A DNA stretch of 64,000 nucleotides from Desulfosediminicola flagellatus (lineage in GTDB: Bacteria; Desulfobacterota; Desulfobulbia; Desulfobulbales; Desulfocapsaceae). The stretch lies in the NCBI RefSeq assembly GCF_005116655.2, contig NZ_CP050698.1:3083489-3147488 (forward strand). The letters are read 5' to 3'. Position numbers and translations under genes: made by a program. The notes under the pieces were generated by a model. The model was not told the DNA's origin and did not search any database. It saw nothing but the letters and a program-made list of their open reading frames with translations. Within the stretch, counting starts at the first letter, position 1; each line of letters begins with the position of its first letter. Of this stretch, positions 43,961-63,861 are shown piece after piece.

Positions 43961-44087
43961 ACTTCCCCCTGCATTTGTAGTATCACCTTGCTATTTTCTC
44001 ATAAAAGCCCTGTACATTCAGTAATCCGTATGTATTAATTAATTAAGTTGCTTGCCACTAATATTGTTGATTGTAGGGAGTTCCTTT

Positions 44088-47027
44088 ATGCAATTTGAAG
44101 ATGATGAAATACTGCAGGGATTTATAGAAGAATCTCTAGAACATCTCGCAGACATAGAAACCGACCTTCTAGCCATAGAAGAGACCGGCGCAAACATTGA
44201 TGAAGATCTGGTCAATAAAGTTTTCAGGGCTGCGCACTCAATTAAAGGCGGTGCCGGCTTTATGGGCCTTACCGCCATCCAGGAACTTTCGCATGCATCA
44301 GAAAATGTTCTGGGAATGATTCGGAGTAAAAAGCTCGTCCCCAATCCTGAGATAATCAACGTACTCTTACTTGCATCAGATCAGCTTCAACGAATGATTG
44401 AAGATGTTCAGAACAGTAACGATGTTGACATCACGTCTCATGTCGATCCTCTTAATGCTATTGCGGATGGCACGTTTGCTACATTATCGCCACCTGCTGA
44501 AACGGCTAAGGAACCACCTGTTCCGGATCAGGCAGAATCAGATCTTCCTGAACCTGATCAGCCGGAGCCTCTTCTAGAAGAAGACTTTGCAGATATAGAA
44601 TCGATAGAAGAAGAACCAGAAGCTCTTCCCGAAGTCGAAGAACTTTCTCAACCGGAACCCTATTATGATCCGGAACCTCACCCCATTGAAGAGCCATCCT
44701 ATATGCCGGACCCTGAACCTATCACCTCCGAAGCGACTATAGCCATGGCAGCTGTTACCGCAGAAGCGAGCCCTCAAGCCGCAAAAAAAGCAACAACAAA
44801 GCCTGAAACTTCGATACGTGTCAATGTTAGCCTGCTGGATTCACTCATGACTCTTGCTGGCGAACTCGTCTTAAGCCGCAACCAGTTACTACAAACCATC
44901 GGCTCAGATGATATTCGCAACGCTGAAACAGTAGGCCAGCGGATCGATCTCATCACCTCCGAGCTGCAGGAAGCTATAATGCTTACCCGAATGCAGCCAA
45001 TAGGTAATGTTTTTAACAAATTCCCACGTGTTGTCCGGGATCTTTCCAAAAAGCTCAACAAAAAAATTGATCTCACCATTGTCGGTAAAGATGTCGAACT
45101 CGACAAAACTATTATTGAATCGATAAACGATCCGCTTACCCACCTTGTCCGAAATTCTGTTGATCATGGTATTGAAATGCCTGCCGACAGGAAGAAAACA
45201 GGCAAGCCTGAGAGAGGACTTGTTATCCTGAAAGCCTATCACGAAGCAGGCCAGGTCGTTATCGAGATAAGTGATGACGGAAGGGGGATTAACGGCGAGG
45301 CACTTGCTGAAAGTGCAGTCAATAAAGGCCTACTCACTGTCGAACAAACCAAAGCTATGTCCGACAAGGAGAAGGTAAACCTCATATTCCTTCCTGGTTT
45401 TTCAACCGCAGCCGAAGTAACCGACGTGTCAGGACGTGGTGTCGGTATGGATGTGGTCAAGACCAATCTTGACCAACTAGGCGGTCATGTAGACATTATT
45501 TCTGAAATCGGGCGAGGAACAACTATCTCCATTAAGTTGCCTCTGACACTTGCAATTATCCCATGCCAGATCATTATGACAGGCGGGGAACGATATGCAA
45601 TTCCTCAGGTTAACCTCGAGGAGTTACTACGTATTCCGGCAAATCAGGTCAAAGAAAGGGTTGAACGGGTTGGTGATGCAGAAGTCGTCCGATTACGTGG
45701 CAACCTTCTCCCACTCATCCGACTATCAGATGTCATTGGGCTGGACCGAACGTACTGGGATGACCATGAAGAGGAATTCAAAGATGATCGGCGAGAACTT
45801 ATCTCCGATCGCCGCGGTAAAGAATCGCCGATGTTCAACGACGATGGAAAACCTACCCAAAGAGCGCAGGAATCAGGGCCAAACCGTTCAGTTCTGGACA
45901 GACGATATTCTGCTTCGAGTGCTTTAAATATTGTCGTTGTCTCAACCGGCTCAATGAAATATGGCCTGGTTGTCGACCGCCTGCTTGACTCCGAGGAAAT
46001 CGTCATCAAACCATTGGGACGTCACCTTCAGCAGTGTAAAGGATATGCTGGCGCAACAATCATGGGTGATGGCAGAATAGCCTTGATTCTTGACGTTGCC
46101 AATCTTGCCCGAATGTCAAACCTGACCTCACTTGACGGAACAGACAGAGCCACTGAAGTTGCAATCGCAGCAGATGAAGCACACAAGCTCAATAGAGATA
46201 AACAGGCACTGTTGATTTTCAGAAGTTCCGAAGAAGAACAATTTGCAGTTCCGCTTAATCAGGTCGAAAGAATCGAAAAGATCAAACAGAGTGATATTGA
46301 AGATCTTGGTGGCAAGCGTGTTATGCAATACCGTGGAGGCAGTCTCTCGCTTATACGGGTTGATGATGTAGCAATGGTCCAACCGCTTGCTGATATCGAA
46401 AATTTGCTGGTAATAGTCTTCAATGTTGCTAAGAGAAACATTGGATTATTAGCAATAGGCCCGATTGATGCTATCGAAATATCAGCTGATATTGATGATG
46501 TGACTCTCAAACAGACCGGTATCATGGGGTCGGTGATTATTGATACCCACACCACAATGCTGGTGAATATCTTTGAACTTGTCCAGACGTTGCTCCCTGA
46601 ATGGTTTGAAGATATGGAAACATATGAATTTAGCGAAGATGAAGATAGTAATCCTCCTACTATTCTTCTTGCAGAAGATTCCAACTTCTTTAGAAATCAG
46701 GTTAAAAGCTACATGACTGAAGCCGGTTATGAGGTTATTGAAGCCGAAGATGGACAGATTGCATGGGAATCGCTGCAAGCTAATATTGATCAGATTTCAA
46801 TGGTTATTACCGACATTGAGATGCCAAACATGGACGGGTTTGAACTTACCAAAACAATCAGGAATGACCCCCGATTTACCGGCATTCCGGTTATCGCCCT
46901 TACCACACTTGCGGGAGAAGAAGATATCGCCAAAGGCAAAGCTGTGGGAGTTGATGAATATCACATCAAACTCGACAAGGAAAGCCTCATGACTACTGTC
47001 CATCACTATATGAAGCAACTTCACTGA
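44088..47027 (+). CDS. cheA: Hybrid chemotaxis histidine kinase CheA with C-terminal receiver
   Basis: A 979-residue kinase. The HPt domain has the phosphorylated His in AAHSIKGGAG (His50). A Pro/Glu-rich linker (about 120-235) stands where a P2 domain would be. The dimerisation domain includes LMTLAGELVLSRNQLLQ, and the ATPase shows HLVRNSVDHGIE and GRGVGMDVV. Two CheW-like domains follow; the first carries a charged insertion of about 60 residues. A receiver domain (about 855-979) ends the protein, with the phosphoacceptor Asp in ITDIEMPNMDG. The start ATG has AGGGAG upstream; the frame's earlier TTG is rejected. It heads the cheA-cheW-cheB-cheR operon. Confidence 0.94.
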   Translation: MQFEDDEILQGFIEESLEHLADIETDLLAIEETGANIDEDLVNKVFRAAHSIKGGAGFMGLTAIQELSHASENVLGMIRSKKLVPNPEIINVLLLASDQLQRMIEDVQNSNDVDITSHVDPLNAIADGTFATLSPPAETAKEPPVPDQAESDLPEPDQPEPLLEEDFADIESIEEEPEALPEVEELSQPEPYYDPEPHPIEEPSYMPDPEPITSEATIAMAAVTAEASPQAAKKATTKPETSIRVNVSLLDSLMTLAGELVLSRNQLLQTIGSDDIRNAETVGQRIDLITSELQEAIMLTRMQPIGNVFNKFPRVVRDLSKKLNKKIDLTIVGKDVELDKTIIESINDPLTHLVRNSVDHGIEMPADRKKTGKPERGLVILKAYHEAGQVVIEISDDGRGINGEALAESAVNKGLLTVEQTKAMSDKEKVNLIFLPGFSTAAEVTDVSGRGVGMDVVKTNLDQLGGHVDIISEIGRGTTISIKLPLTLAIIPCQIIMTGGERYAIPQVNLEELLRIPANQVKERVERVGDAEVVRLRGNLLPLIRLSDVIGLDRTYWDDHEEEFKDDRRELISDRRGKESPMFNDDGKPTQRAQESGPNRSVLDRRYSASSALNIVVVSTGSMKYGLVVDRLLDSEEIVIKPLGRHLQQCKGYAGATIMGDGRIALILDVANLARMSNLTSLDGTDRATEVAIAADEAHKLNRDKQALLIFRSSEEEQFAVPLNQVERIEKIKQSDIEDLGGKRVMQYRGGSLSLIRVDDVAMVQPLADIENLLVIVFNVAKRNIGLLAIGPIDAIEISADIDDVTLKQTGIMGSVIIDTHTTMLVNIFELVQTLLPEWFEDMETYEFSEDEDSNPPTILLAEDSNFFRNQVKSYMTEAGYEVIEAEDGQIAWESLQANIDQISMVITDIEMPNMDGFELTKTIRNDPRFTGIPVIALTTLAGEEDIAKGKAVGVDEYHIKLDKESLMTTVHHYMKQLH

Positions 47028-47034
47028 CCCGATA

Positions 47035-47067
47035 GCTGCAGAATGTAGTACTTCTCCATTCTGCAGC
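47035..47067 (+). terminator. Intercistronic hairpin between cheA and cheW
   Basis: GCTGCAGAATG (47035-47045) and its exact complement CATTCTGCAGC (47057-47067) form an 11-base stem with an 11-base loop. No T-run follows, so it may tune the CheA to CheW ratio or stabilise the mRNA. Confidence 0.45.
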
Positions 47068-47116
47068 ATCAGCAACACAGCCCCTAACAGCACAAACTCT
47101 ACCCTGACGAATTACT

Positions 47117-47575
47117 ATGACAAATGACTCCACCCAGGTAACCAGGAAACAGGTTGTAGAATTAGCAACGTTTTATATTGGCGATGCGCTCTGCGGCATG
47201 GACATCCTCAAGATTCAGGAAATCAATAAACTCATGAAGATGACTAAGGTACCTCAAGCACCTGAGTATGTGCTAGGCATCTTAAACCTCAGAGGCCAGA
47301 TCGTAACCATTATTGACCTTGGCAAAAAACTTGGGTTAGGCGAGACAGACATAACCCTTGACCCGAGAAATATTATAGTCAACTCGTCCGGAAGCTTTAT
47401 AGGCTTACTCGTCAAAAAAATAGGTGACGTGGTTGAAGCCGATATGGAAAAACTTGAGGCATCACCTGCTAATATGCGTGGCATCCAGGGTGATTTTTTT
47501 ACCGGTGTTTACAAAACCCAAACCCACCTGATTGGTATTCTAGACATTGATAAAGTTTTGAGCCTGGACGACTAG
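47117..47575 (+). CDS. cheW: Chemotaxis coupling protein CheW
   Basis: A 152-residue CheW domain protein. It shows LATFYIGDALCGMDILKIQEI at the start, VLGILNLRGQIVTIIDLGKKL, and a GLLVKKIGDVVE strand. CheW links receptors to CheA. It lies 90 bases after cheA and abuts cheB (the CheW stop is seven bases before the CheB ATG), giving one operon. No receptor gene is present in the window. Confidence 0.95.
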   Translation: MTNDSTQVTRKQVVELATFYIGDALCGMDILKIQEINKLMKMTKVPQAPEYVLGILNLRGQIVTIIDLGKKLGLGETDITLDPRNIIVNSSGSFIGLLVKKIGDVVEADMEKLEASPANMRGIQGDFFTGVYKTQTHLIGILDIDKVLSLDD

Positions 47576-47582
47576 AGGATAT

Positions 47583-48719
47583 ATGATCGCACCAAAGAAG
47601 CTGCGTGTTCTTGTGGTAGATGACACGATCGTCTACAGAAAATCTGTGTCAGATATAATAAATGAAATTCCCGGCGTAGAACTTGCCGGTGTTGCCCATA
47701 ACGGCAAAATTGCCATTGACAAGGTCATCACCCTTAAACCGGATTTACTGACCCTTGATATTGAAATGCCTGTAATGAACGGGATTGAAGTCTTAGCAGA
47801 ACTCAAAAAGAATCATCCCGGCATAGGTGCAGTCATGCTCTCGACCTTAACTGCTGATGGCAGCGAAATGACAATGAAAGCATTGGACCTTGGTGCCTTC
47901 GACTTTATACTTAAGCCTCAAAGCAAAAACCTCATTGAAGGAAAACGGGAAATACGGCGCCTTCTTGAACCTATCCTGAGAGCATATTCAAGATCCCGTA
48001 CCGCCAGAAATCTTCTGCAATCCAAACCAATAAGCAGACGACCGCAACCGGTATTAAAACGAACAACGCTTACCACGGCTCGCACAGATTTAAAAAAAGC
48101 AATAGGTGCCCAAAGCCCGGCAAGTGCGCTGCGGCGTAGAACCAAATCTGAAATTGTAACAATTGGAATTTCAACAGGCGGTCCAAACGCATTAAATCAA
48201 ATGCTTCCCCAATTACCCGCCGATATAAATGTGCCAATTCTTATTGTTCAACATATGCCGCCCGTCTTCACCAAATCACTTGCAAATAGTCTGGACAAAA
48301 AATGTAAACTCAAAGTAAAAGAAGCTGAAGATAAAGAACCTATTCAGCCCAATGTTGTTTATATTGCTCCCGGCGGCAAACAAATGAAACTGGTAGCTGC
48401 CGCCGATGGTCATAACAGGCTCATAAAAATTACTGACGACCCTCCTGAAAATTCCTGCAAACCATCAGCAGATTACCTTTTCAGGTCTGTTGGTGATTAT
48501 TACGTAGGCAGAACCACCGCCGTCATCATGACAGGAATGGGGTCTGATGGTACCAAGGGACTTGAAATATTAAAAAAGAAAGGAGCTCACATAATAGCTC
48601 AGGATGCAAACTCGTGTGTTGTCTACGGGATGCCCAAAGCTCCTACGGAACTAGGTTATGCAGATATTGTTGCCCCACTGCAAAAAATCGCTGAAGAAAT
48701 CACAAAAAGCGTTAAATAA
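47583..48719 (+). CDS. cheB: Chemotaxis protein-glutamate methylesterase CheB
   Basis: A 378-residue two-domain enzyme that removes methyl groups from receptors. The receiver domain (about 8-125) has VLVVDDTIVYRKS and the phosphoacceptor in LLTLDIEMPVMNG. A basic linker of about 60 residues follows, then the methylesterase domain with the catalytic Ser in GISTGGPNAL, His in QHMPPVFT, and Asp in MTGMGSDG. The ribosome-binding site AGAGGAT overlaps the CheW stop. The linker is Arg-rich. Confidence 0.95.
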   Translation: MIAPKKLRVLVVDDTIVYRKSVSDIINEIPGVELAGVAHNGKIAIDKVITLKPDLLTLDIEMPVMNGIEVLAELKKNHPGIGAVMLSTLTADGSEMTMKALDLGAFDFILKPQSKNLIEGKREIRRLLEPILRAYSRSRTARNLLQSKPISRRPQPVLKRTTLTTARTDLKKAIGAQSPASALRRRTKSEIVTIGISTGGPNALNQMLPQLPADINVPILIVQHMPPVFTKSLANSLDKKCKLKVKEAEDKEPIQPNVVYIAPGGKQMKLVAAADGHNRLIKITDDPPENSCKPSADYLFRSVGDYYVGRTTAVIMTGMGSDGTKGLEILKKKGAHIIAQDANSCVVYGMPKAPTELGYADIVAPLQKIAEEITKSVK

Positions 48720-48768
48720 TTTTTCACTATGAAAAAGCCACTTTTCATTAAACGGAACCCTCACAACA

Positions 48769-49605
48769 ATGATTAAGATCGCCCCCGATGAACTAAAGAT
48801 AGTTGCTCAGTACATCAAAGATATCTCGGGCATACATCTTGATCAGAGCAAGAGTTACCTCTTTGAAACTCGCTTGAGTTCAATAGCGGAAGAGGCAGGT
48901 TGTTCCTCCTACAGAGAACTGCAAAAAAAAGCAAAACTTGACGCATCCAAAAAAATTGAACGCCGGATAGTTGATGCTATCACCACAAACGAAACATTAT
49001 TTTTCAGAGATAAGGGACCGTTCGAACTCCTTCAACATAAGATTCTGCCGGAAATGATTGACCTCAGAACTCCGAGAACCCCAACGATCAAAACCAATTT
49101 ACGCATCTGGAGCGCCGCCTCATCGACAGGACAGGAACTTTACTCAATTGCAATAATCTTAAAAGAATTACTCAGAGACCTCTCTAAATATAAAATCACC
49201 CTTCTAGGTACTGATATTTCTGACAATGCGATCTCACAGGCCAGTTACGGCAAATATAATAAATTTGAGATAGAACGGGGCTTGGAAAGGCCGATGCTAC
49301 AAAAATATTTCAGCCTCATCGGTGATTCCTGGAAGATTAAAGACGAAATCAGAAGCATGGCAAATTTCAGAAAACTCAACCTGATGCAGCCATTCACATC
49401 ATTAGGTAAGTTTGATATTATATTTTGCCGAAATGTCGCCATATATTTCACCCTTCAGGACCGTCAAAAGCTGTTTAATAAAATCGCTGACAGCCTTGCC
49501 GATGACGGTTTTCTCGTGATTGGATCAACAGAATCGCTAACTGGAGTATGTAATCGTTTTATTCCTAAACGACATTTGCGATCAATTTTTTATCAGAAGA
49601 AATAG
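48769..49605 (+). CDS. cheR: Chemotaxis protein methyltransferase CheR
   Basis: A 278-residue methyltransferase that methylates receptor glutamates using SAM. The N-terminal helical domain is followed by TTNETLFFRDKGPFELL, IWSAASSTGQELYSIAI (SAM motif), LLGTDISDNAI and IFCRNVAIYF. All are standard CheR elements. The Arg-rich beta-subdomain for receptor pentapeptide binding cannot be judged. It follows cheB by 50 bases. Confidence 0.94.
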   Translation: MIKIAPDELKIVAQYIKDISGIHLDQSKSYLFETRLSSIAEEAGCSSYRELQKKAKLDASKKIERRIVDAITTNETLFFRDKGPFELLQHKILPEMIDLRTPRTPTIKTNLRIWSAASSTGQELYSIAIILKELLRDLSKYKITLLGTDISDNAISQASYGKYNKFEIERGLERPMLQKYFSLIGDSWKIKDEIRSMANFRKLNLMQPFTSLGKFDIIFCRNVAIYFTLQDRQKLFNKIADSLADDGFLVIGSTESLTGVCNRFIPKRHLRSIFYQKK

Positions 49606-52376: not shown

Positions 52377-52405
52377 GCACCACCTTGAGCATAAACAGAT
52401 TTTAT

Positions 52406-53905
52406 ATGGTTCCATCAATATCAATACTCATTGCCTCAGAACCTTCAGAAAACAGTTCTGTGTTGCAATCACATATACACGCAGCATTTGATTCCACAGT
52501 TCATCAAACACAATCACTCTCAGAGTTGTATGATTGTCTAGAAAAGGAACATCCGGATATCCTTGTTGTTGACACCTCATCTCCCGTGCCGGAGCTGGGA
52601 ATAAGCCTGATCAAACGATTGCGTAATGAATCGCCGTCACTTCTCATTTTACCGCTTATTTCCACAGATCGCCGTCAACTGATCCAACAACTGCTAAGCC
52701 TGAATGTTCAATTTTACATTCATACACCGCTGGAGGCTGCAGAAACTACTCTTACCCTCACACGGGCAACGGAATATTTACAAACACATAGACGGGTACC
52801 ATCAGCAGAACTGAAAAATGACAACAGCGAATGCTTCCACGGGATGATAGGCGGAAGCAGTATTATGCAGAACCTTTTTGAACTCATACGACGGGTTGCT
52901 GATGACGATGAGTCAACAGTATTGATTCGCGGCGAATCAGGCACCGGAAAAGAAATGGTCGCCAAGGCAATCCATTCCCGTAGCGCAAGAGCCTCTAAGA
53001 ATTTTGTACCGGTAAACTGTGCAGCAATACCTGATGACCTACTCGAAAGTGAGCTTTTTGGTTACACAAAAGGCGCGTTCACCGGTGCAACAAGCAACAA
53101 AATCGGGCGCATACAGTATGCTGAAGGAGGCACACTCTTTCTTGATGAAATTGGCGACATGAAGCCTTCGCTTCAGGCCAAACTCCTTCGTGTTCTGCAG
53201 GAAAAAGAGTTTGAGCCAGTGGGGGCACTCAAATCGATTCCAGTTGATACCCGCGTACTGGCAGCCACTCATTGCGATCTTGAACACCTTGTCAGTGTAG
53301 GAGAGTTCAGGGAAGATCTCTATTATCGACTAAGTGTTATCCCGGTTAATATTCCTTCATTAAAAGAGCGTCGAGAAGACATCCCACAACTCATCGAACG
53401 ATTTGTCAGAAACTTCACAGAAAAGCGCAACAGAGAACCCTTCACGTTTTCAACACATGCCTACAATGCGCTGATAAACTTTGAATGGCGTGGCAACGTG
53501 CGAGAGCTTGAAAACCTCATCCAGCACATGTCGATCATATATAGCGGTAAAGAGATACATTTCGACGACCTACCTGAAAAATTTCTAAGCCTTAAGGATC
53601 TGGTTGAGTCAGCAGAGCAGATCAAATCACCCGAAACTGTAAATATACAGCGTGATGATATACTAAACAATTCTGCTCCACCGCAAGCATCTACGACTCA
53701 GGATCCTATAGGTAACGTAGCATGGCACGAGGGACAGGTAGACTTCAGGGAACTCATTAACAGCTTTGAAACTGAGCTCATTGTACATGCAATGAAACTT
53801 GCGGATGGTAATAAGAAGGAAGCAGCCCGCCTGCTTAACCTTAAGCGCACGACCTTGCTTGAGAAGATAAAAAAGAAAGATTTACAGGATATTTGGAAGA
53901 AGTAA
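52406..53905 (+). CDS. FleQ-like sigma-54-dependent activator with degenerate receiver
   Basis: A regulator of about 499 residues. The N-terminal receiver-like domain (about 1-120) keeps the central Asp in LVVDTSSP but the conserved Lys is missing (YIHTPLE) and the acidic pair is not typical. The AAA+ domain has Walker A GESGTGKE, the sigma-54 contact loop GAFTGA and Walker B LFLDEIGDM. The Fis-type HTH is GNKKEAARLLNLKRTTLLEKI. This architecture is that of FleQ/FlrA flagellar master regulators. A TTG at 52385 is an alternative start. A sigma-54-like promoter is visible at 60.06 kb in front of flagellar genes. Confidence 0.9.
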   Translation: MVPSISILIASEPSENSSVLQSHIHAAFDSTVHQTQSLSELYDCLEKEHPDILVVDTSSPVPELGISLIKRLRNESPSLLILPLISTDRRQLIQQLLSLNVQFYIHTPLEAAETTLTLTRATEYLQTHRRVPSAELKNDNSECFHGMIGGSSIMQNLFELIRRVADDDESTVLIRGESGTGKEMVAKAIHSRSARASKNFVPVNCAAIPDDLLESELFGYTKGAFTGATSNKIGRIQYAEGGTLFLDEIGDMKPSLQAKLLRVLQEKEFEPVGALKSIPVDTRVLAATHCDLEHLVSVGEFREDLYYRLSVIPVNIPSLKERREDIPQLIERFVRNFTEKRNREPFTFSTHAYNALINFEWRGNVRELENLIQHMSIIYSGKEIHFDDLPEKFLSLKDLVESAEQIKSPETVNIQRDDILNNSAPPQASTTQDPIGNVAWHEGQVDFRELINSFETELIVHAMKLADGNKKEAARLLNLKRTTLLEKIKKKDLQDIWKK

Positions 53906-53929: not shown

Positions 53930-56449
53930 TCAGGCTGCTAATTTGACAAGATTGTTTTCCAGATTTTCCAGAATATCATCACCTGAGGCAGGAGTTAGCA
54001 GTATATCGGTTATACCGTATTTTACAGCCTTGATCACCTTACTTTTCGTCCATTGCGGCCCTGCTGCAATTAATGGCAGTGAACATGATGAATTCACCTT
54101 GATGATCATACCAAAAGCCTGTTCATCTATCCGGCTCATCACAATATAAATCGCCTTCAGCTCAGGTGTAATTGCCCCCCGTATATTATCCTTAAACGAG
54201 ATTGTCCTGACAGCAAAGCCGCGAGCATCAGCACCGGCCACCAAACCTGATGCTGCTCCCTCATCATCACTGATAATCAAAATATCGACAGGAACATGTT
54301 TTGAAGGATCTATACTCCGCATTGCAGCGGCACCACCAGCCTCTTCCTGCGGCGGGGCGGATCCCTGCTTCACTGCTGCAGGTTCAACTGCCGCAGAGGC
54401 CTCAGACTCAGCCTTGGCCATTGCATCAAGGTTAAGCAACGCTGCCGGGAAGAGCATATTTACCTGTCCATGTTGTTCTCCATTGATTAACAACGACATG
54501 GAACTGAGATAATATTCTACATCAGGAACAGGCTCATCCGACTCTATATCAACCTTCATCGGAGTAATCTGATCAAGATCCGTTCGTACAAATCTGATCT
54601 TATGTATATATTGGGCCTCAAAGACTCCGGTATAGACACCAGCAATTATGTTGGCTATTTCACCGTAGGCATCTTTTGAATCTTCAGAGAACTCCTCTGC
54701 CGAAACTGTAGCTTCAAGTTCAGAAGGCGGTAGCATTATCAGCATTCCGCCCATATAAATAGCATCTTTTGTTGAAACAAAAAGATAGCTTTTTCCTTGA
54801 ATCTCTCCAACGACATCCAGATTGGCCATAACCTGTTTGCCATTGACTGTATCAAAGAAAAAATCTTCTTTACTGACACTTGAGTTTTTCTGATCGACAA
54901 GCTCTATTTCTGCTCCCAGAAGTGCCCCGACCTCTCCCTTCATTTTGCCAACACACTCTTTCAGGAGTTTATCGACTCGTTTTTTATGTTTGACAATATC
55001 AAACTTCGGACCCGGGGCTGCAGCAGTTGTCGAAGGTGTCGTATCGGGTTGATCCTGTTGTTGTACCTCGGCATCAGGAGCCTTTGCTTCGGCCTGCTCA
55101 CTCTTAGCTTGCTGCCCACTGTCTGCTGCAACATCCTGAACCACTTGATCAGCCTCGGCGATATGTAACATCGCCGCAGGAAACATCATCCTGACTTTCC
55201 CAAGATCTTTCCCATCGACATTAAGAGCCATGCAACTCATATAATACTGATCGTCAGCAATGGGCTCACTAGACTCTATATTGACCTTCATAGGAACGAT
55301 ATGGTGAAGATCCTTTTTTATAAAACGAAGGTTCTCATTATACTGTTCTTCAAATACCGACGTGTAGACACCTGAGACTATATTTGCTATTTCACCATAA
55401 GAATCCTTCAGATCTTCACTAAATTCCTCCTCACTGACAACCAACTCGAGCTCTGAAGGCGGCAACATAATCAACACGCCACCAAGGTGGATCGAGTCTT
55501 TAAGACTCGCAAAGAAATAACTCTTCCCTTGTTGATCACCAACAACATCCATATTTGCTGAAATCTGCTTACCTTCAACCTCTTCAAAGAAAAATTCTTC
55601 CTTGGAAATGTGCCGGTTTTTCAGGCCTGAAAATGTAATCTCAACCCCTAGCAGGCTTGACAATTCTTCAGAGAGTTTCTGCTCACATGAAGCAAGAATT
55701 TTATCAATACGCTTTTTGTGTTTTAAAGGATCAATTGTTTTCTTAGACGGGGCACCAGCTACTTCGGCTGCTTCAGGTACTTCGTCACCGGATTCGGGCG
55801 CGGTTTCTACTTCAGAATCCTGTTGTGCAGATTCAACCGTACTCTCGGCTTCAGCTTCCTGCTCCTGCGGAACTTCTTCTTGTACCAACCCAAAGGCCAA
55901 CGCAGGCATGAGCATATGAAGATCGCCCATTTGACGATCAGCCATAGCAAGCTTGATGCTAACCTGATAATACTGCTGATCTGGAATAGGCTCATCGCTT
56001 TCAATATCTACTTTTACCGGCACAACCATTTCCTGCTCTTTACGTATGAATCGGCAGGATTTCGGGAACATCTCTTCAAACACTTTGGTGAACGATCCAG
56101 CTATGATGTTTGCTATCTCACCATATGAATCTTCAGACTCCTCTGTATATTCTTCACGGCCGACAACCTCCTCAAGCTCGGAATCCGGGAGCATGATAAG
56201 CGTACCACCAAGACGGATCGCATCTTTAATGCCGATAACCAGACATCCGACACCTTCAACCTCTCCGGCCACATCAATTTTAGCAAGGATCTGCTTGCCC
56301 ATGAGGTTATCAAAAAATGCCTCCTTGGTGACAAGCTCAGCGCGAGCGTTGCTGACAGAGATTTCCACCCCGAGCAGTACACCCACCTCTTCTTTCACCT
56401 GGTCATGAACAGAACCCAGAATTTTATCGATACGTTTTTTTACGTCCAT
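53930..56449 (-). CDS. Triple CheX/CheC-like repeat protein with receiver-like C-terminus
   Basis: An 839-residue protein built from three copies (about 1-200, 240-430, 490-690) of a domain of roughly 190 residues. Each copy begins KK-RIDKxL-type and carries DSYGEIAN or DAYGEIAN, matching the D-x3-E-x2-N signature of CheC/CheX phosphatases. Acidic, Gln/Glu-rich linkers separate the repeats. The last 120 residues (VDILIISDDEGAASGLVAG to ITDILLTPASG) fold like a receiver domain but lack the usual phosphoacceptor pattern. The neighbours are two single CheX genes and cheY. CheX dephosphorylates CheY-P; three such units plus a receiver-like tail suggest a multivalent scaffold or regulator. Confidence 0.88.
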   Translation of the reverse strand: MDVKKRIDKILGSVHDQVKEEVGVLLGVEISVSNARAELVTKEAFFDNLMGKQILAKIDVAGEVEGVGCLVIGIKDAIRLGGTLIMLPDSELEEVVGREEYTEESEDSYGEIANIIAGSFTKVFEEMFPKSCRFIRKEQEMVVPVKVDIESDEPIPDQQYYQVSIKLAMADRQMGDLHMLMPALAFGLVQEEVPQEQEAEAESTVESAQQDSEVETAPESGDEVPEAAEVAGAPSKKTIDPLKHKKRIDKILASCEQKLSEELSSLLGVEITFSGLKNRHISKEEFFFEEVEGKQISANMDVVGDQQGKSYFFASLKDSIHLGGVLIMLPPSELELVVSEEEFSEDLKDSYGEIANIVSGVYTSVFEEQYNENLRFIKKDLHHIVPMKVNIESSEPIADDQYYMSCMALNVDGKDLGKVRMMFPAAMLHIAEADQVVQDVAADSGQQAKSEQAEAKAPDAEVQQQDQPDTTPSTTAAAPGPKFDIVKHKKRVDKLLKECVGKMKGEVGALLGAEIELVDQKNSSVSKEDFFFDTVNGKQVMANLDVVGEIQGKSYLFVSTKDAIYMGGMLIMLPPSELEATVSAEEFSEDSKDAYGEIANIIAGVYTGVFEAQYIHKIRFVRTDLDQITPMKVDIESDEPVPDVEYYLSSMSLLINGEQHGQVNMLFPAALLNLDAMAKAESEASAAVEPAAVKQGSAPPQEEAGGAAAMRSIDPSKHVPVDILIISDDEGAASGLVAGADARGFAVRTISFKDNIRGAITPELKAIYIVMSRIDEQAFGMIIKVNSSCSLPLIAAGPQWTKSKVIKAVKYGITDILLTPASGDDILENLENNLVKLAA

Positions 56450-56562
56450 GTAAATATAAATTGATTATAAGACCGAGAGAATACACCTATATTGTTCACA
56501 TTAGCCATAGTAGGTGTATCGGCTTCTGCTGCGTAAAACTTTAAATCTCTATCAGCTAAATT

Positions 56563-57042
56563 TCAACTTAAGACATAGAGCAGTTCGACCCAGAAGGTGC
56601 CGCTGTCTAATTGGAAGGAAATATTATGACGGATGGAACCAGACGCACCACTAACCCGAAAGCCATTTCCGACTACAGAGGTAGGAATAGCAAGTTCAAC
56701 ATTAATGCCCGCATCGGCATAGGATACCTTCAGGTTACCTGCTATCATGTTAACTATTTCACCAATTGCATCTTTTACATCTTCGTCAAGCTCCTCAACA
56801 TCAATACCAAGAAAGGAGCCTGTTATAAATTGTGCTACCTCAGCAGGACAGTGTACGGCAAGCATTCCACGCACACCACCACCGAGACCGATCATGCTTG
56901 TAAGGTTAGAGGTGATTACATTCGCTTTTTGATCTGACACATCTTCGGCTGCAACTTCAAGCATGAGCATTGTCGAAAAAACATCCTGTGTTCCTGATAT
57001 AATTTCCTGCCCAATATTTAATTGTTTACATTTATCAGTCAT
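56563..57042 (-). CDS. CheX-like chemotaxis phosphatase
   Basis: A 159-residue CheX domain protein. The catalytic signature is DAIGEIVNMIAGN, with Glu and Asn spaced as in CheX, and a Pro follows 22 residues after the Asn as expected. LGGGVRGMLAVHCP is the preceding strand. It removes phosphate from CheY-P. The ATG at 57042 has AGGGA six bases upstream. The reading frame extends into the adjacent insertion sequence, which must be excluded. It lies 114 bases upstream of the triple-domain gene. Confidence 0.9.
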   Translation of the reverse strand: MTDKCKQLNIGQEIISGTQDVFSTMLMLEVAAEDVSDQKANVITSNLTSMIGLGGGVRGMLAVHCPAEVAQFITGSFLGIDVEELDEDVKDAIGEIVNMIAGNLKVSYADAGINVELAIPTSVVGNGFRVSGASGSIRHNISFQLDSGTFWVELLYVLS

Positions 57043-57056
57043 CGTATCCCTATATA

Positions 57057-58106
57057 TTAAGCCGGTCGTTGATTGCCCGACATTAGAATGTACTTTGTCC
57101 ATGGGTGCCTAAAGAATGATTTGACCTTTTCAGGAAGCCTCTGCAAGGACCGCATAATGCTCTCAACTCTTTTAAACAAATCAAAACCGTTCTTGGTGCA
57201 TTGCCGACCAATTTTATGATTTTTAAGGTAATTCCAAACATGTTCATCAGGATTGAGTTCGGGAGAATAAGGTGGCAAAAAGAACAGACGAAGCTTTCCT
57301 GCTCTACTCTTAACAAACTCTCGTACTTCCTTGGATCTGTGAACTGAATGGTTGTCCAAAATCAAAAATACAGGCCGATTTGCCTTATAAAGCAAACGTT
57401 TCAAAAACTCTATAAAGACAGTAGCAGTGACATTCCCATCTGTGCTCATGAATCGCATAGTCCCTCTCGGGCTGATCGCAGAAACAAGGTTCACTTTATG
57501 CCGAGAGGCAGTAGTTTTGACAGTTGGTGTCTTCCCAACTGGTGCCCAAGTTGTGCCAGAATGATAATCAGATCGAACAGAGGACTCATCCCCAAAGAAG
57601 ATCTCAGCATTCTGTTCTTTCGCCAGCTTGCGAATAGCAGGATAGTCTTCTGCCATCCATTTATAGACAGAAAGCTCGTCTCGTTGAATAGCCCTATGTG
57701 TGGGACGTTGAGGACTCAATCCCATCTTCTTGAGCAGGCGACCTACAGAGACCTCACTCAACTTGACTTTAAACTCACGCCAAATAAGCTCACGAACCAT
57801 ATCCCGCGTCCACAGGGCAAATTCGAATTTGAGTTGGCGTGGGTCAACACCAACCACAAGACGATAAATTTTCTTAAGTTGGCTACCGTTCAGCTTTGGC
57901 GTTTTACCTGGTGCCTTACGGCGTCGAAGAGCATCTATGCCACCTTCTCTGTACTTTGCAAGCCATTCGTAAATCTGGGATCTAGTAAACCCGAGTGCCT
58001 TAATAACGACTTCTGGACTTTCACCGGCTTCAACGCGTTGCACAGCCCTAATGCGAATTGCTTCAAGGGCCTTTCTGTCAATTTTTCTTCCGTCAGTATT
58101 TTTCAT
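57057..58106 (-). CDS. IS630-family transposase
   Basis: A 349-residue intact transposase. The N-terminal helix-turn-helix covers about 1-110 (including SPEVVIKALGFTRSQIYEWLAKY). The catalytic triad is visible as FFGDESSV near 176, LILDNHSVH near 253, and PPYSPELNPDEHVW near 285. This is the IS630/Tc1-type DDE pattern. The stop codon TAA uses the TA of the target duplication. No frameshift is visible, so the element could be active. Confidence 0.93.
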   Translation of the reverse strand: MKNTDGRKIDRKALEAIRIRAVQRVEAGESPEVVIKALGFTRSQIYEWLAKYREGGIDALRRRKAPGKTPKLNGSQLKKIYRLVVGVDPRQLKFEFALWTRDMVRELIWREFKVKLSEVSVGRLLKKMGLSPQRPTHRAIQRDELSVYKWMAEDYPAIRKLAKEQNAEIFFGDESSVRSDYHSGTTWAPVGKTPTVKTTASRHKVNLVSAISPRGTMRFMSTDGNVTATVFIEFLKRLLYKANRPVFLILDNHSVHRSKEVREFVKSRAGKLRLFFLPPYSPELNPDEHVWNYLKNHKIGRQCTKNGFDLFKRVESIMRSLQRLPEKVKSFFRHPWTKYILMSGNQRPA

Positions 58107-58148
58107 ACGCTGAGTATAACAAATGTCGGCTAATCAATGCACGTCTTA
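57058..58148 (-). mobile_element. IS630-family insertion sequence
   Basis: The element spans 57060-58146 between TA dinucleotides (57058-57059 and 58147-58148), the usual IS630 target duplication. Terminal inverted repeats share TTGATTxxCCGACATTxG (15 of 18 bases) and the outermost AGxCG. It has inserted between the two cheX genes. Confidence 0.85.
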
Positions 58149-58160
58149 ATAACAGATTGA

Positions 58161-58180
58161 GAGCCTGATAAATCAGGCTC
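58161..58180. terminator. Hairpin after the upstream cheX gene
   Basis: GAGCCTGA (58161-58168) pairs perfectly with TCAGGCTC (58173-58180) around a four-base loop. It lies 26 bases past the stop of the cheX at 58206. On the plus strand TTTAT follows, so direction is uncertain. Confidence 0.5.
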
Positions 58181-58205
58181 TTTATCGTCACAAAACAATA
58201 TAGAA

Positions 58206-58661
58206 TTAATTCTCAAGCTGCAGTTCAATTGCAAAAGTACCAACCTCACAGGAAAAGTTTATCAAGACCTTTTCCACCTCTTTAGTTGGTTGAAAATTAT
58301 ATTTATGACCGGAAATAGTTGATGGCATCGATAATTCTATATCCCTGCCTTTTTCTGACAAACTCGTTTTCACATTTCCGCCAAGCATGTTAGCAAGTTC
58401 ACCTATAGCGTCTTCTACATCTTCACCAATTTCGGTCACTTCCATGCCAAGAAAACTGCTGGTTATTGCCATCGCCACCTTATTCGGCAAGTGTATAGCC
58501 AGCACCCCTTTATGCGTACCGGCAAGACCAATAACCCCGGATATACTATCCTCCATAATTTTGTTTTTTTCGATGTCTTTGCCTATGACCTCAATTTCCA
58601 TCATGATCATTGTCGAAAATATCTCTTTAGCCGAATCGATGATTTTATCACCTAATTCCAT
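58206..58661 (-). CDS. cheX: CheX-like chemotaxis phosphatase
   Basis: A 151-residue protein with the CheX signature DAIGELANMLGGN, Pro 22 residues later, and the strand GLAGTHKGVLAIHLP. It is clearly related to the CheX at 56563 but distinct in sequence. CheX lowers CheY-P. The ATG at 58661 follows GAGGATAAC. It lies 24 bases after cheY in the direction of transcription, so the two are probably co-transcribed. The IS630 element separates it from the second cheX. Confidence 0.92.
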   Translation of the reverse strand: MELGDKIIDSAKEIFSTMIMMEIEVIGKDIEKNKIMEDSISGVIGLAGTHKGVLAIHLPNKVAMAITSSFLGMEVTEIGEDVEDAIGELANMLGGNVKTSLSEKGRDIELSMPSTISGHKYNFQPTKEVEKVLINFSCEVGTFAIELQLEN

Positions 58662-58684
58662 CAAGTTATCCTCAGGTTGAACAT

Positions 58685-59056
58685 TTACAACAAGGGTCCG
58701 AGAACCTCATTAACCTTATCAGGGGTAAAAGGTTTCTTTATTGCTCCGATAGCTCCAAGAGACTTAGCTTCACCAATAATATCATCTCCTGTTTCAGTGG
58801 ATATCATCAGGACCGGTATATCCTTGATAGCGTCACGTGATGCTTTCTCTCGTAGGAAAGAAATCCCATCCATATTCGGCATATTGATATCACTGAGTAC
58901 AATATCCACTTTCTCTTTTTCCAGCACTTCAAGTGCTTCAAGCCCGTCACTCGCTTCAAAGATGTTATCAAAATCAAGACCGGCCTGCCTCAGAGAGCGA
59001 CCGATAATTTTGCGCATTGTACTTGAATCATCAACCAACAGCACATTCTTGCCCAT
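58685..59056 (-). CDS. cheY: CheY chemotaxis response regulator
   Basis: A 123-residue single receiver domain. NVLLVDDSSTMRKII near the start holds the acidic pair, the phosphoacceptor Asp is in VLSDINMPNMDG, Thr is in VLMISTETG and Lys in AIKKPF. It is the signalling output to the motor or to other targets. The ATG at 59056 has AGGAGA upstream; the longer frame to 59170 is not supported. It is followed directly by cheX. Confidence 0.94.
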   Translation of the reverse strand: MGKNVLLVDDSSTMRKIIGRSLRQAGLDFDNIFEASDGLEALEVLEKEKVDIVLSDINMPNMDGISFLREKASRDAIKDIPVLMISTETGDDIIGEAKSLGAIGAIKKPFTPDKVNEVLGPLL

Positions 59057-60059: not shown

Positions 60060-60075
60060 TGGTATATTTATTGCA
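60060..60075 (+). promoter_or_regulatory. Sigma-54-type (-24/-12) promoter candidate
   Basis: TGGTATATTTATTGCA carries the GG and GC elements ten bases apart, as in the TGGCAC-N5-TTGC consensus. It lies 35 bases before the ATG of the large exported repeat protein that precedes flgB. A sigma-54 activator of FleQ type is encoded at 52.4 kb. Confidence 0.5.
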
Positions 60076-60109
60076 AAAGATCTTCCATAAACCATGGAAT
60101 ACAATTGAT

Positions 60110-62542
60110 ATGAAAAATCTGATCACAACAATCTCCCTTTTAGGTATCTTCTTCCTAAGCCTGAATGCTATGGCTGAGTCCACACTTGTGAAACTCGCTA
60201 AGGCGGACAGTAAAGATATTGTTCAGATTTTTTTATCATTTGACGCACTGCCGAAATATACGCACAAGCTTGCAAAAAAACGTCTGGATATCATTTTTGA
60301 AGAAACTATTATTCCAAACGATATCAAACTGTTTGATTCGGACGGCCGAATTATAAAGGTCTTGCCGACCACCCGTGCAGGCAGATCTGTCCTCTCTCTT
60401 TTCTTTAGATATCCACCACAAAAGGTGAATGTCGAAACATCAAGCGACAACAAAATTGTCGCTGAGATTCTTTTGGGCAACCAGTACAGCAGATCATATC
60501 AGGAGCTATCCGAAAGACTTAAAGGGTTAACGGTAGTAGAAAGCGAACCTGTAGACTCTACCAACCCACTGATCACTTCACCCTATGCACAGGATTGGGA
60601 CCGCTTCTTCCGTAAATACGAAGCTGATATCACTATCTCCGTACCAATTGAATTCACAGTTCCACCTTTCCCTATAATAGCCCTTATCCCTCCCGGCCTT
60701 GAGAAGAATATGGAACTGCTTCCAATGGAGTTTTACGAACTGGCCGAGCAGAACCTTTGGGATGATATGCAACCGCTTATTCTGGATCTACTAAGATCAA
60801 CTCCTGACATAAAGAACCAGAAACTCCTGGCACTGACATATGGAGAAGCCCTTCTGCGGCATAATGATTATGAGGGAGCGTATAAGCAGTTGTATCTTCT
60901 AAACAGAGAATATTCTGACGAACATGTTGGAATCGTCTCACAATACCTTATCAACGTGCTCGATACAAAATTCCACGATCCATATACGTCAGATTATGAG
61001 TATAGAAAGCTTGAAAAATTACTCACTCCAACCAACCCGATCGCTCCATATTTTCTTATCTCGAGAGTAGAAACAGCTCTTGCCACAAAACAGTACAATA
61101 GGATGAAACGACTGCTGGACACAGACACCATCCCCTTCCCGGGGAAGTCGCAAAAAATAAGGGAACTCCGGCTTGGAGACTATTATAATGTCACTGATCA
61201 ACCGGTAAAATCATTCGTTGCCTACAAGTTACTAAAAGACACCCCATTACTGAAATCTCACGCATTTTCATTAAATGGTTTCTGCAGCACATTATATAAC
61301 CATCACAAATATGCACTAGCGTCCGAATGCTATAGGGACCTCAGCCCGCAAATAAACGATAACGAATCGCTGGGTTTAATAACGTTTCGAAAAAGCATGG
61401 CAGAACTAAAATATAAATCGGAAAACGAGATGATTGACAGCTTCGCAAGAATAGAGGACGCCTTTCCAGGCACAGAGGCTGGATTTAGGGCATCTTTAAA
61501 GCGAACCGATCTCAAATATCTCAACGACAAAGGCTGGGCAAATGAGGCAGTCAAATACTACCACGCTCTCGCACAACGATCGGTTATCCGCTCTACAGTT
61601 GCTGAAGCTGCATTAAAAGAAGCACTGATCCATTCAATCCTTGGGAACAAGGAAAAAAGTGTTTCACTTTTAATGACCTTTTTACGTGATTTTAAACTCA
61701 GTGAATTGCGGGATACGGCACTTGCACTCCTCGTAGATATTCTTCCAGGTGAGATTCAACGTAATATCAATGAGGGCGACTATATGGCAGCCCTTGTGCT
61801 GGCTAAACAAAATCGAGAGTTGTTCCAGAACAACTGGTTGGACATCGGCTTGCTTGCTGATATTGCCAACGCATATCAAAAAATTGGCATTTTCAGTGAA
61901 GCACAGCGGGTATATCTGTATCTTATAGAAGTTGTGGATGTCGAAAAACGTGAGAAATTTTTCCGACCATTGATCCAGTCAGTCTTCGACCAGGGCGAAT
62001 ATGGTCTTGTTGAGGATTTTGCTTCACAATACGCATATAACTATCCGGGCGGCAATGATACTGAGCCGATTCTCTCAATCAGAATACGTGCGCTCATCGC
62101 TTCTGAACAATTTACCAATGCGATAGAACTCTTACCATCACCACTTTCACCTAACAGAGAGATACGTCTTCTCGCCGCCGAATTGCATTTTAAAAACGAT
62201 GATTTTGAAAAGGTGATAGATGCCCTGACAATTCTCAACGACTCAGAAACAGGGCTGCAAACAAATGAACATTTTTTACTGGCTGAAAGTAATTTCCAAA
62301 CACAAAAGTATGACAAGGCAGAAGAACTGTTTTTACAACTAGAAAATGACAATCGCTTTGGTGAACAGTCACTTTACAGACTCGCCCAGATTGAACGTGA
62401 GAAGGGAAATTTTGAAAACTCCCTAAAACTCTTTCAAAAAATAGTCGAAAAAGGAAATGACACCTTGTGGCGTAAATACGCCGAAAGAGAGCTGGAATAT
62501 TCCCAACTCACAAAAACAATCGAAAGTCTCATTGAGAACTGA
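60110..62542 (+). CDS. Large exported TPR-like protein upstream of flagellar genes
   Basis: An 810-residue protein with a signal peptide (ITTISLLGIFFLSLNAMA, cut before Glu). An N-terminal beta-rich region covers about 20-160. The rest is helical with TPR-like units (for example EALLRHNDYEGAYKQL, AELHFKNDDFEKVIDAL, LAESNFQTQKYDKAEELFLQLE). TPR arrays mediate protein contacts, here in the periplasm. The frame opens at a TTG (60071), but ATG 60110 begins the signal peptide. Position before flgB suggests a flagellar assembly or envelope role, which is inference. Confidence 0.85.
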   Translation: MKNLITTISLLGIFFLSLNAMAESTLVKLAKADSKDIVQIFLSFDALPKYTHKLAKKRLDIIFEETIIPNDIKLFDSDGRIIKVLPTTRAGRSVLSLFFRYPPQKVNVETSSDNKIVAEILLGNQYSRSYQELSERLKGLTVVESEPVDSTNPLITSPYAQDWDRFFRKYEADITISVPIEFTVPPFPIIALIPPGLEKNMELLPMEFYELAEQNLWDDMQPLILDLLRSTPDIKNQKLLALTYGEALLRHNDYEGAYKQLYLLNREYSDEHVGIVSQYLINVLDTKFHDPYTSDYEYRKLEKLLTPTNPIAPYFLISRVETALATKQYNRMKRLLDTDTIPFPGKSQKIRELRLGDYYNVTDQPVKSFVAYKLLKDTPLLKSHAFSLNGFCSTLYNHHKYALASECYRDLSPQINDNESLGLITFRKSMAELKYKSENEMIDSFARIEDAFPGTEAGFRASLKRTDLKYLNDKGWANEAVKYYHALAQRSVIRSTVAEAALKEALIHSILGNKEKSVSLLMTFLRDFKLSELRDTALALLVDILPGEIQRNINEGDYMAALVLAKQNRELFQNNWLDIGLLADIANAYQKIGIFSEAQRVYLYLIEVVDVEKREKFFRPLIQSVFDQGEYGLVEDFASQYAYNYPGGNDTEPILSIRIRALIASEQFTNAIELLPSPLSPNREIRLLAAELHFKNDDFEKVIDALTILNDSETGLQTNEHFLLAESNFQTQKYDKAEELFLQLENDNRFGEQSLYRLAQIEREKGNFENSLKLFQKIVEKGNDTLWRKYAERELEYSQLTKTIESLIEN

Positions 62543-62660
62543 ACGTTTTTTTTTCAACCAGAGACTATGAGGAGGCTATCCGGGGATAGGAATTTTGGTC
62601 AAAAGGCCATTCTCGGACACAGCCCTCCTAGATTAACATGAAAAGACACAGGCACCCCAC

Positions 62661-63080
62661 ATGGAACCCAAATCAGGATTAATAGACCCGGGAATGCAAC
62701 TGCTGACCAAAGTATTGGATCTGAGGGCACAGAACCAGCAGATTATCGCCGCAAACATCGCAAATGCTGAAACACCGGGGTATTCCCCGGCAAAATTTAC
62801 TTTTGAAGATGAATTACGCAGCGTCTTATCTTCGCAGTCAGGCCTGCAACTTACCAGTTCACATCAGAAACATATACCGCTTGGGCCGCGAGATATTCAA
62901 TCAGTTCAGGGAACAATCACCATTAATCCGGATCAGACCGGAATAGGTGATGAAAACGGTGTGAGTGTTGATGAAGAAATGCTTGCTCTCTCAGAAAACG
63001 AATTGCTCTATGAAACTGCAGCCCAGTTACTGAAAAAGAAAATGGGTATTCTAAAGTATGTCGTATCGGGCGGACAGTAA
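62661..63080 (+). CDS. flgB: Flagellar basal-body rod protein FlgB
   Basis: A 139-residue proximal rod protein. The family signature NQQIIAANIANAETPGYSP is near residue 30, and the C-terminal helix LSENELLYETAAQLLKKKMGILKYVV is typical. FlgB forms the base of the flagellar rod together with FlgC, FlgF and FlgG. Only a weak AGG precedes the ATG. It lies 118 bases after the repeat protein and heads flgB-flgC-fliE. Confidence 0.95.
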   Translation: MEPKSGLIDPGMQLLTKVLDLRAQNQQIIAANIANAETPGYSPAKFTFEDELRSVLSSQSGLQLTSSHQKHIPLGPRDIQSVQGTITINPDQTGIGDENGVSVDEEMLALSENELLYETAAQLLKKKMGILKYVVSGGQ

Positions 63081-63123
63081 GCACCGTGGTCGATAGGAAA
63101 CCATAAACAAACAAAGGACCATT

Positions 63124-63555
63124 ATGGACATATTCACCACCTTTAAAATAAGCGCCTCAGCATTAAAGGCCCATAGGATACGACTTAACACAATCAGTTC
63201 GAATCTGGCCAATGTGGAAACCACTTCAACTCCTGAAGGCGGCCCGTATAAGAAAAAATCTGTGTTCTTTGAAACCAAACCCGTCGGGTTTCAGGACCAT
63301 CTGGACAGTCACCTCAGAAACGCCACTCAGGGTGTTCAGGTAACAAAGATCCTTGAAGATACAGATCCACCTCAACAAATCTACAACCCTGCACATCCGG
63401 ATGCCAATGAGGATGGATATGTAGAATTACCTAATGTGAATGTACTAAAAGAAATGGTTGATCTCATGTCTGCAACCAGATCCTATCAAGCAAATGCCAC
63501 AACGATTAAATCCGCTAAGCGAATGGCACTCAAAGCCCTGGAAATCGGAGGATAA
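63124..63555 (+). CDS. flgC: Flagellar basal-body rod protein FlgC
   Basis: A 143-residue rod protein. It begins FTTFKISASALKAHRIRLNTISSNLANVET, the conserved N-terminal helix. VNVLKEMVDLMSATRSYQANATTI and AKRMALKALEIG form the C-terminal helix that packs into the rod. The ribosome-binding site AAAGGA is good. The stop codon is six bases before the FliE start, and GGAGGA of the stop region serves FliE. Confidence 0.96.
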   Translation: MDIFTTFKISASALKAHRIRLNTISSNLANVETTSTPEGGPYKKKSVFFETKPVGFQDHLDSHLRNATQGVQVTKILEDTDPPQQIYNPAHPDANEDGYVELPNVNVLKEMVDLMSATRSYQANATTIKSAKRMALKALEIGG

Positions 63556-63561
63556 CGATAA

Positions 63562-63861
63562 ATGAGTATTACACCGATTATAACATCACAACCGCCAATG
63601 CCCTTGCGTCAACCTGACACCAGCAGTGTATCACAGGCCAAATCAGGATTTGGCGAGATACTCAGCAACACACTCAGTGAAGTTAATCAGGAACAGACAA
63701 GCAGCGAGGCTGCTGTGGAAAGACTCCACTCGGGGGGAGCCAAACACCTCCACGAAGTTATCATCGCTGTTGAACAGGCTGACGTATCTCTCAGAATGCT
63801 TGTACAGATGCGAAATAAGGTCCAGCAGGCGTATGAAGAGATAATGAGAATGCAGATATAA
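63562..63861 (+). CDS. fliE: Flagellar hook-basal body protein FliE
   Basis: A 99-residue protein. FGEILSNTLSEVNQEQ and HEVIIAVEQADVSLRMLVQMRNKVQQAYEEIMRMQI are the conserved FliE helices. FliE links the MS-ring to the rod. The GGAGG ribosome-binding site lies inside the flgC stop region. fliF would be expected next. The 139 bases to the window edge hold no obvious start of it. Confidence 0.96.
   Translation: MSITPIITSQPPMPLRQPDTSSVSQAKSGFGEILSNTLSEVNQEQTSSEAAVERLHSGGAKHLHEVIIAVEQADVSLRMLVQMRNKVQQAYEEIMRMQI

Follow-up and report, generated by a model that had tools for sequence, protein, structure and literature searches.

The 64,000-nucleotide stretch of the Desulfosediminicola flagellatus genome analysed here (contig NZ_CP050698.1; hereafter the window) encodes an 839-residue protein, CheXn-pREC, in which three CheC/CheX-type domains are followed by a C-terminal pseudoreceiver (pREC). 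This conserved protein belongs to the CheC/CheX/FliY superfamily; its multi-domain architecture is unusual and its evolutionary pattern informative. Two canonical cheX genes (PF13690, 1.2e-23 and 2.7e-22) and cheY (PF00072, 9e-26) are encoded on the same strand (Table 1), and these Pfam matches confirm the original prediction that five CheX-like domains lie within 5 kb. A Pfam scan of the genome gave no PF13690 match elsewhere. Genes for CheA, CheW, CheB and CheR are located 4-10 kb from CheXn-pREC and, together with the rod gene flgB, identify a flagellar chemotaxis locus. CheXn-pREC is thus an accessory of an ordinary flagellar chemosensory system and not part of a new chemosensory module, as had been proposed.

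Table 1. Features of the CheXn-pREC locus, in window coordinates
Feature	Position	Strand	Remarks
CheXn-pREC gene, 839 aa	53930..56449	-	three CheC/CheX-type domains, acidic/Pro-rich linkers, pREC
Repeat 1, residues 4-188	55886..56440	-	motif D107/E111/N114; N-type repeat
Repeat 2, residues 244-429	55163..55720	-	motif D349/E353/N356; additional C-type copy in the Desulfopila clade
Repeat 3, residues 488-674	54428..54988	-	motif D593/E597/N600; C-type repeat
pREC, residues 722-839	53933..54286	-	Met771 in place of the acceptor Asp, Thr819 in place of the conserved Lys
Canonical cheX (second), 159 aa	56563..57042	-	from ATG at 57042; coordinates approximate
IS630-family insertion element	57055..58152	-	target site TA, between the two cheX genes; transposase at 57057-58106
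Canonical cheX (first), 152 aa	58206..58664	-	
cheY, 123 aa	58685..59056	-	flagellar CheY
Sigma-54 activator	52385..53905	+	convergent neighbour of the CheXn-pREC gene in nearly all Desulfobulbales loci
CheA, CheW, CheB, CheR	44052..49605	+	same flagellar locus
TPR (tetratricopeptide repeat) protein, then flgB, flgC, fliE	60071..63861	+	flgC and fliE named from sequence

Domain boundaries were taken from a profile built in this analysis. Each of the three repeats carries one intact D-x3-E-x2-N motif, as originally predicted, and PF13690 (CheX) matches the protein in three stretches (7.4e-14), while PF04509 (CheC) matches once (2.4e-06). Among the relatives, whose last repeat and pREC were searched, 58 of 63 gave a PF13690 match at E<=0.01. 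The Asp/Glu/Asn motif is intact in 18/18 cases for each repeat of the three-repeat proteins and in 66/70 for each repeat of the two-repeat proteins. Since Glu and Asn are kept in dozens of homologs at about 35-60% identity, this conservation is far beyond chance. AlphaFold2 models were built from relatives, and folds were compared with Foldseek and then in a structural second look with Z scores. The models are confident within domains, with a predicted local distance difference test (pLDDT) score of 94-98 across repeat 3 and under 50 in the linkers (residues 192-232, 436-479 and 687-714), and place the single Glu/Asn site of each repeat on the second long helix. The nearest structural matches of the repeat are the FliM middle domain (4gc8, Z 21.0), FliY (4hyn, 19.8) and CheC (1xkr, 17.3), and it matches short CheX more weakly (Foldseek TMt about 0.6-0.64); CheX was not among the 50 matches listed in the second look, which we do not count as evidence. 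The earlier description of the repeats as CheX-like therefore holds for the Pfam matches, but their fold is nearer to FliM-middle, FliY and CheC.

The last ~118 residues adopt a receiver fold (2qxy, Z 17.1 over 117 residues, root-mean-square deviation 2.4) without the usual phosphoacceptor pattern, in agreement with the original prediction. Met771 aligns with the phosphoacceptor, Thr819 with the conserved Lys and Gly797 with the switch Thr, and Met occupies the phosphoacceptor position in 83 of 99 homologs. All 99 have the same residue at six positions, W800, T801, A808, G812, I816 and P820; conservation is highest in beta4-alpha4-beta5 and lowest in alpha1, alpha2 and alpha5. Above the curated cut-off of PF00072 (Response_reg) there was no match for the 839-residue protein and one, weak, among 63 close relatives; a distant single-repeat relative, L150, passes it. 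Phosphorylation of pREC in the usual way is not possible.

The protein is not unique, but represents a conserved family in flagellar and chemotaxis loci of Desulfocapsaceae, Desulfobulbaceae and some other families of the phylum. The protein was found in 31 of the 58 related genomes searched, all but one of the same family. A scan of the genome collection with a single protein as query yielded no confirmed match, whereas an alignment as query succeeded, retrieving 79 loci in named genomes, mostly of Desulfopila, Desulforhopalus, Desulfocapsa, Desulfofustis, Desulfobulbus, Desulfogranum or nearby metagenome-assembled genomes. A phylum-wide search added further families, including a single-repeat form of about 350-380 residues. 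Repeat number ranges from 0 to 3, two being commonest, then three, then one, and the pseudoreceiver is the most persistent part of the protein. The gene order cheY-cheX-(cheX)-CheXn-pREC is kept beside flgB/flgC or other flagellar or che genes. According to a repeat tree in which several nodes are weakly supported, N-type and C-type repeats split at the base of the family's clade. On this tree, the extra repeat of three-repeat proteins is a copy of the C-type repeat in the Desulfopila clade; in L073, L069 and the group L070/L074/L131 it is a copy of the N-type repeat. It was thus gained at least three times. Two relatives have other arrangements. In L152 (7759-9140), part of a cheA/cheW/cheX cluster, CheX is joined to a degenerate receiver and a true CheY comes immediately after; this arrangement is possibly close to the origin of the CheX-pREC architecture. 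L153 (7019-8182), from another family of the phylum, belongs to a cheX-cheY-X-cheA cluster and carries two CBS domains after a CheX-like N-terminal domain; it is a possible nucleotide-sensing CheX.

The strongest result, though a correlation, comes from lineages that have lost chemotaxis. Of 43 genomes, 33 have FliM and all of these carry the family; the 10 that lack FliM do not. Seven of the flagellated genomes lack canonical CheX, flagellar-type CheA and a flagellar CheY orthologue, all three of which were searched for, except for one weak, short CheA match in G027. In three of the seven cases (L051, L052 and L057) the che cluster is missing between the genes that flank it in the window. These che-negative genomes fall on five separate branches in a tree of two neighbouring proteins, and G030 and G057 have che-positive sister species in the same genus. 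At least two intact repeats were present in 26/26 che-positive and 0/7 che-negative flagellated genomes (Fisher 2e-7, ignoring phylogeny); the genome counts are not independent, and the tree gives five events of che loss. Across the 26 che-positive genomes checked, no repeat has lost the Glu/Asn pair. Repeats have decayed in all five che-negative branches, and all of these have kept pREC with its invariant W-T motif: G012 and G027 retain pREC with no detected repeat, and G057, G014 and G028 have lost the catalytic Asn in both repeats. Identity in che-negative lineages is lower for repeats than for pREC (50 vs 71% in G030/G017, 60 vs 84% in G057/G333), whereas in che-positive pairs the difference averages -1.0 (standard deviation 6.6), that is, no difference on average; for L052 the faster drift of the repeats is shown weakly. 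The repeats thus answer to chemotaxis and pREC to the flagellum.

An IS630-family element of 1.1 kb stands between cheY-cheX and cheX-CheX3-pREC and could affect the co-transcription of these two parts in this strain. Its ends and TA target site were obtained by comparison with its identical second copy in the genome; the identical transposase copy lies at G000:C1:772688-773734 and a broken partial copy near 1276602. The original prediction missed this element, and the 179-residue open reading frame that it reported for the second cheX starts inside it, and the true start is at about 57042; the L031 orthologue is likewise 159 residues long. A 15-nt stem-loop (58155-58186) lies between the first cheX and the element. 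Elsewhere in the window, CheA (44052-47027) matches the CheW domain in three stretches and ends in a receiver domain, and the N-terminal receiver-like domain of the sigma-54 activator falls short of the Pfam cut-off. The TPR protein (60071-62542) has a likely N-terminal signal sequence and stays between cheY and flgB family-wide, including most che-negative genomes. Sigma-70 promoter-like matches numbered 17 against 11.7 +/- 3.5 expected, and terminator-like matches 2 against 3.8 expected; neither count is informative.

CheC, CheX and FliY hydrolyse the phosphoaspartate by means of an acidic residue and an Asn that reach into the pocket of the receiver (summarised in PMC3035606). The reading that we favour, and hold to be rather probable, is that CheXn-pREC is a phosphatase of phosphorylated CheY (CheY~P) that uses CheC/FliY chemistry, has one to three catalytic units per chain and is tethered by pREC to a flagellar partner; catalysis, partner, location and the benefit of several sites are what we infer. 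CheY~P is the likely substrate in view of the conserved Glu/Asn, the fold, the neighbourhood and the co-loss with CheY. In each repeat, Glu and Asn would enter the CheY~P acceptor pocket and position the attacking water, a chemistry known for CheC, CheX and FliY and suggested here by conserved residues in the right fold. The survival of pREC while the repeats decay upon che loss suggests that the tail serves to anchor the enzyme on the machinery of the flagellum. The beta4-alpha4-beta5 edge of pREC probably docks on a flagellar partner; as a constitutive docking surface it would hold the phosphatase on a putative partner that is part of the flagellar and not of the chemotaxis machinery, and destruction of CheY~P would then take place close to the motor. 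Additional repeats may raise local activity or avidity, alongside the two soluble CheX proteins. The multivalent CheY~P phosphatase or buffering scaffold of the original prediction fits this pattern, with Glu/Asn intact in the che-positive genomes checked and lost, or the repeats deleted, where che genes have been lost.

Several observations weigh against this reading. The conserved Pro stands at +30 after the Asn in all three repeats and not at +22 as in the D-x3-E-x2-N-x22-P signature, which the canonical cheX genes of the operon follow (counted by eye). The modelled domain arrangement of the full protein is unreliable, with a predicted TM score (pTM) of 0.50. A phosphatase role looks redundant, since the operon also encodes ordinary CheX. 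In G005 and G030, whose assemblies are fragmented but whose loci read contiguous, the one remaining repeat retains Asp/Glu/Asn, so that a second role of the repeat or slow decay is possible. Finally, the N-terminal EI-x-x-LL motif of FliM is kept in 7/7 che-negative genomes; as four FliM-positive, CheA-negative controls outside the family, which have no pREC, also keep it, this says nothing either way about docking of pREC on the FliM N-terminus.

Tentatively, we also consider it a real possibility that pREC has a role of its own, separate from chemotaxis, as a conserved accessory domain of the flagellum in Desulfobulbales: it persists, in some cases nearly alone, in flagellated bacteria that lack CheX, flagellar CheA and flagellar CheY. 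Chemotactic lineages would then have added one to three CheC/FliM-like phosphatase units to it, which would be another way of placing CheY~P phosphatase activity, besides FliY, CheZ and free CheX/CheC. It is unlikely that the protein is a CheY~P sink or buffer whose repeats bind CheY~P and hydrolyse it slowly, with pREC dimerising through its alpha4-beta5-alpha5 face and without flagellar docking. Such a role would suit several binding sites in one chain and the conserved beta4-alpha4-beta5 of pREC, and alpha4-beta5-alpha5 dimerisation is common among pseudoreceivers (PMC12632262); but the repeats keep both Glu and Asn, as catalysis needs, whereas binding alone makes no obvious demand for Asn, and dimerisation alone fails to explain pREC in flagellated genomes without CheY and, in G012 and G027, without detectable repeats. 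The Z score of 21 with the FliM middle domain, the best structural match, and the strict association with FliM could also indicate a structural accessory of the flagellar C-ring, with FliM-middle-like domains in or capping the switch and Glu/Asn a leftover or weakly active. We regard this as improbable, as the genome encodes its own FliM, Glu/Asn is retained in all che-positive genomes, and a structural role would not predict repeats that decay upon che loss while pREC does not. Equally improbable is regulation of flagellar gene expression by pREC via the convergent sigma-54 activator, with the CheC-like repeats linking the activator to CheY~P levels: the activator adjoins the gene in nearly all Desulfobulbales loci, che-negative ones included, but in the single-repeat lineages L146-L151 the gene lies beside cheX and a large open reading frame next to flgB, and no adjacent activator was found.

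The chemotactic response is shaped by the site of CheY~P breakdown. The number of catalytic units, varying from 0 to 3, allows a direct test of whether more phosphatase sites change switching. How bacterial pseudoreceivers are switched is, in the words of a recent review (PMC12632262), a mystery; here, the function of a pseudoreceiver can be put to the test, because five independent losses of chemotaxis have set the repeats and pREC of a single protein apart. Searches of the open-access literature turned up no account of a protein that joins tandem CheX/CheC domains to a pseudoreceiver, which is weak evidence.

As far as can be seen, the chemistry is not new. FliY, the switch phosphatase of Thermotoga and Bacillus, shares the fold of the CheC-type catalytic domain and a genetic tie to the flagellum. 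However, FliY has a C-terminal FliN (SpoA) domain, whereas the 839-residue protein has no SpoA match and carries pREC at its C-terminus; members of the present family have up to three catalytic domains, and the genome also encodes an ordinary FliM. CheC shares the fold and the Glu/Asn active-site motif, but has two such motifs per domain, while the repeats have one and sit in a multi-domain chain. CheX (PF13690; NF041094) is the best Pfam match and has the same motif, but is a single short domain of about 150 residues acting as a homodimer, as against three tandem domains of about 185 residues in one chain, with the shifted Pro and a pREC tail. The FliM middle domain, closest in structure, lacks the catalytic Glu/Asn, and other parts of FliM were not found in the 839-residue protein. 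With pseudoreceivers such as FrzS, reviewed in PMC12632262 without mention of CheC or CheX in the main text, pREC shares a receiver fold that lacks the phosphoacceptor Asp and a conserved alpha4-beta5 region; it differs from them in being fused to CheC/CheX-type domains.

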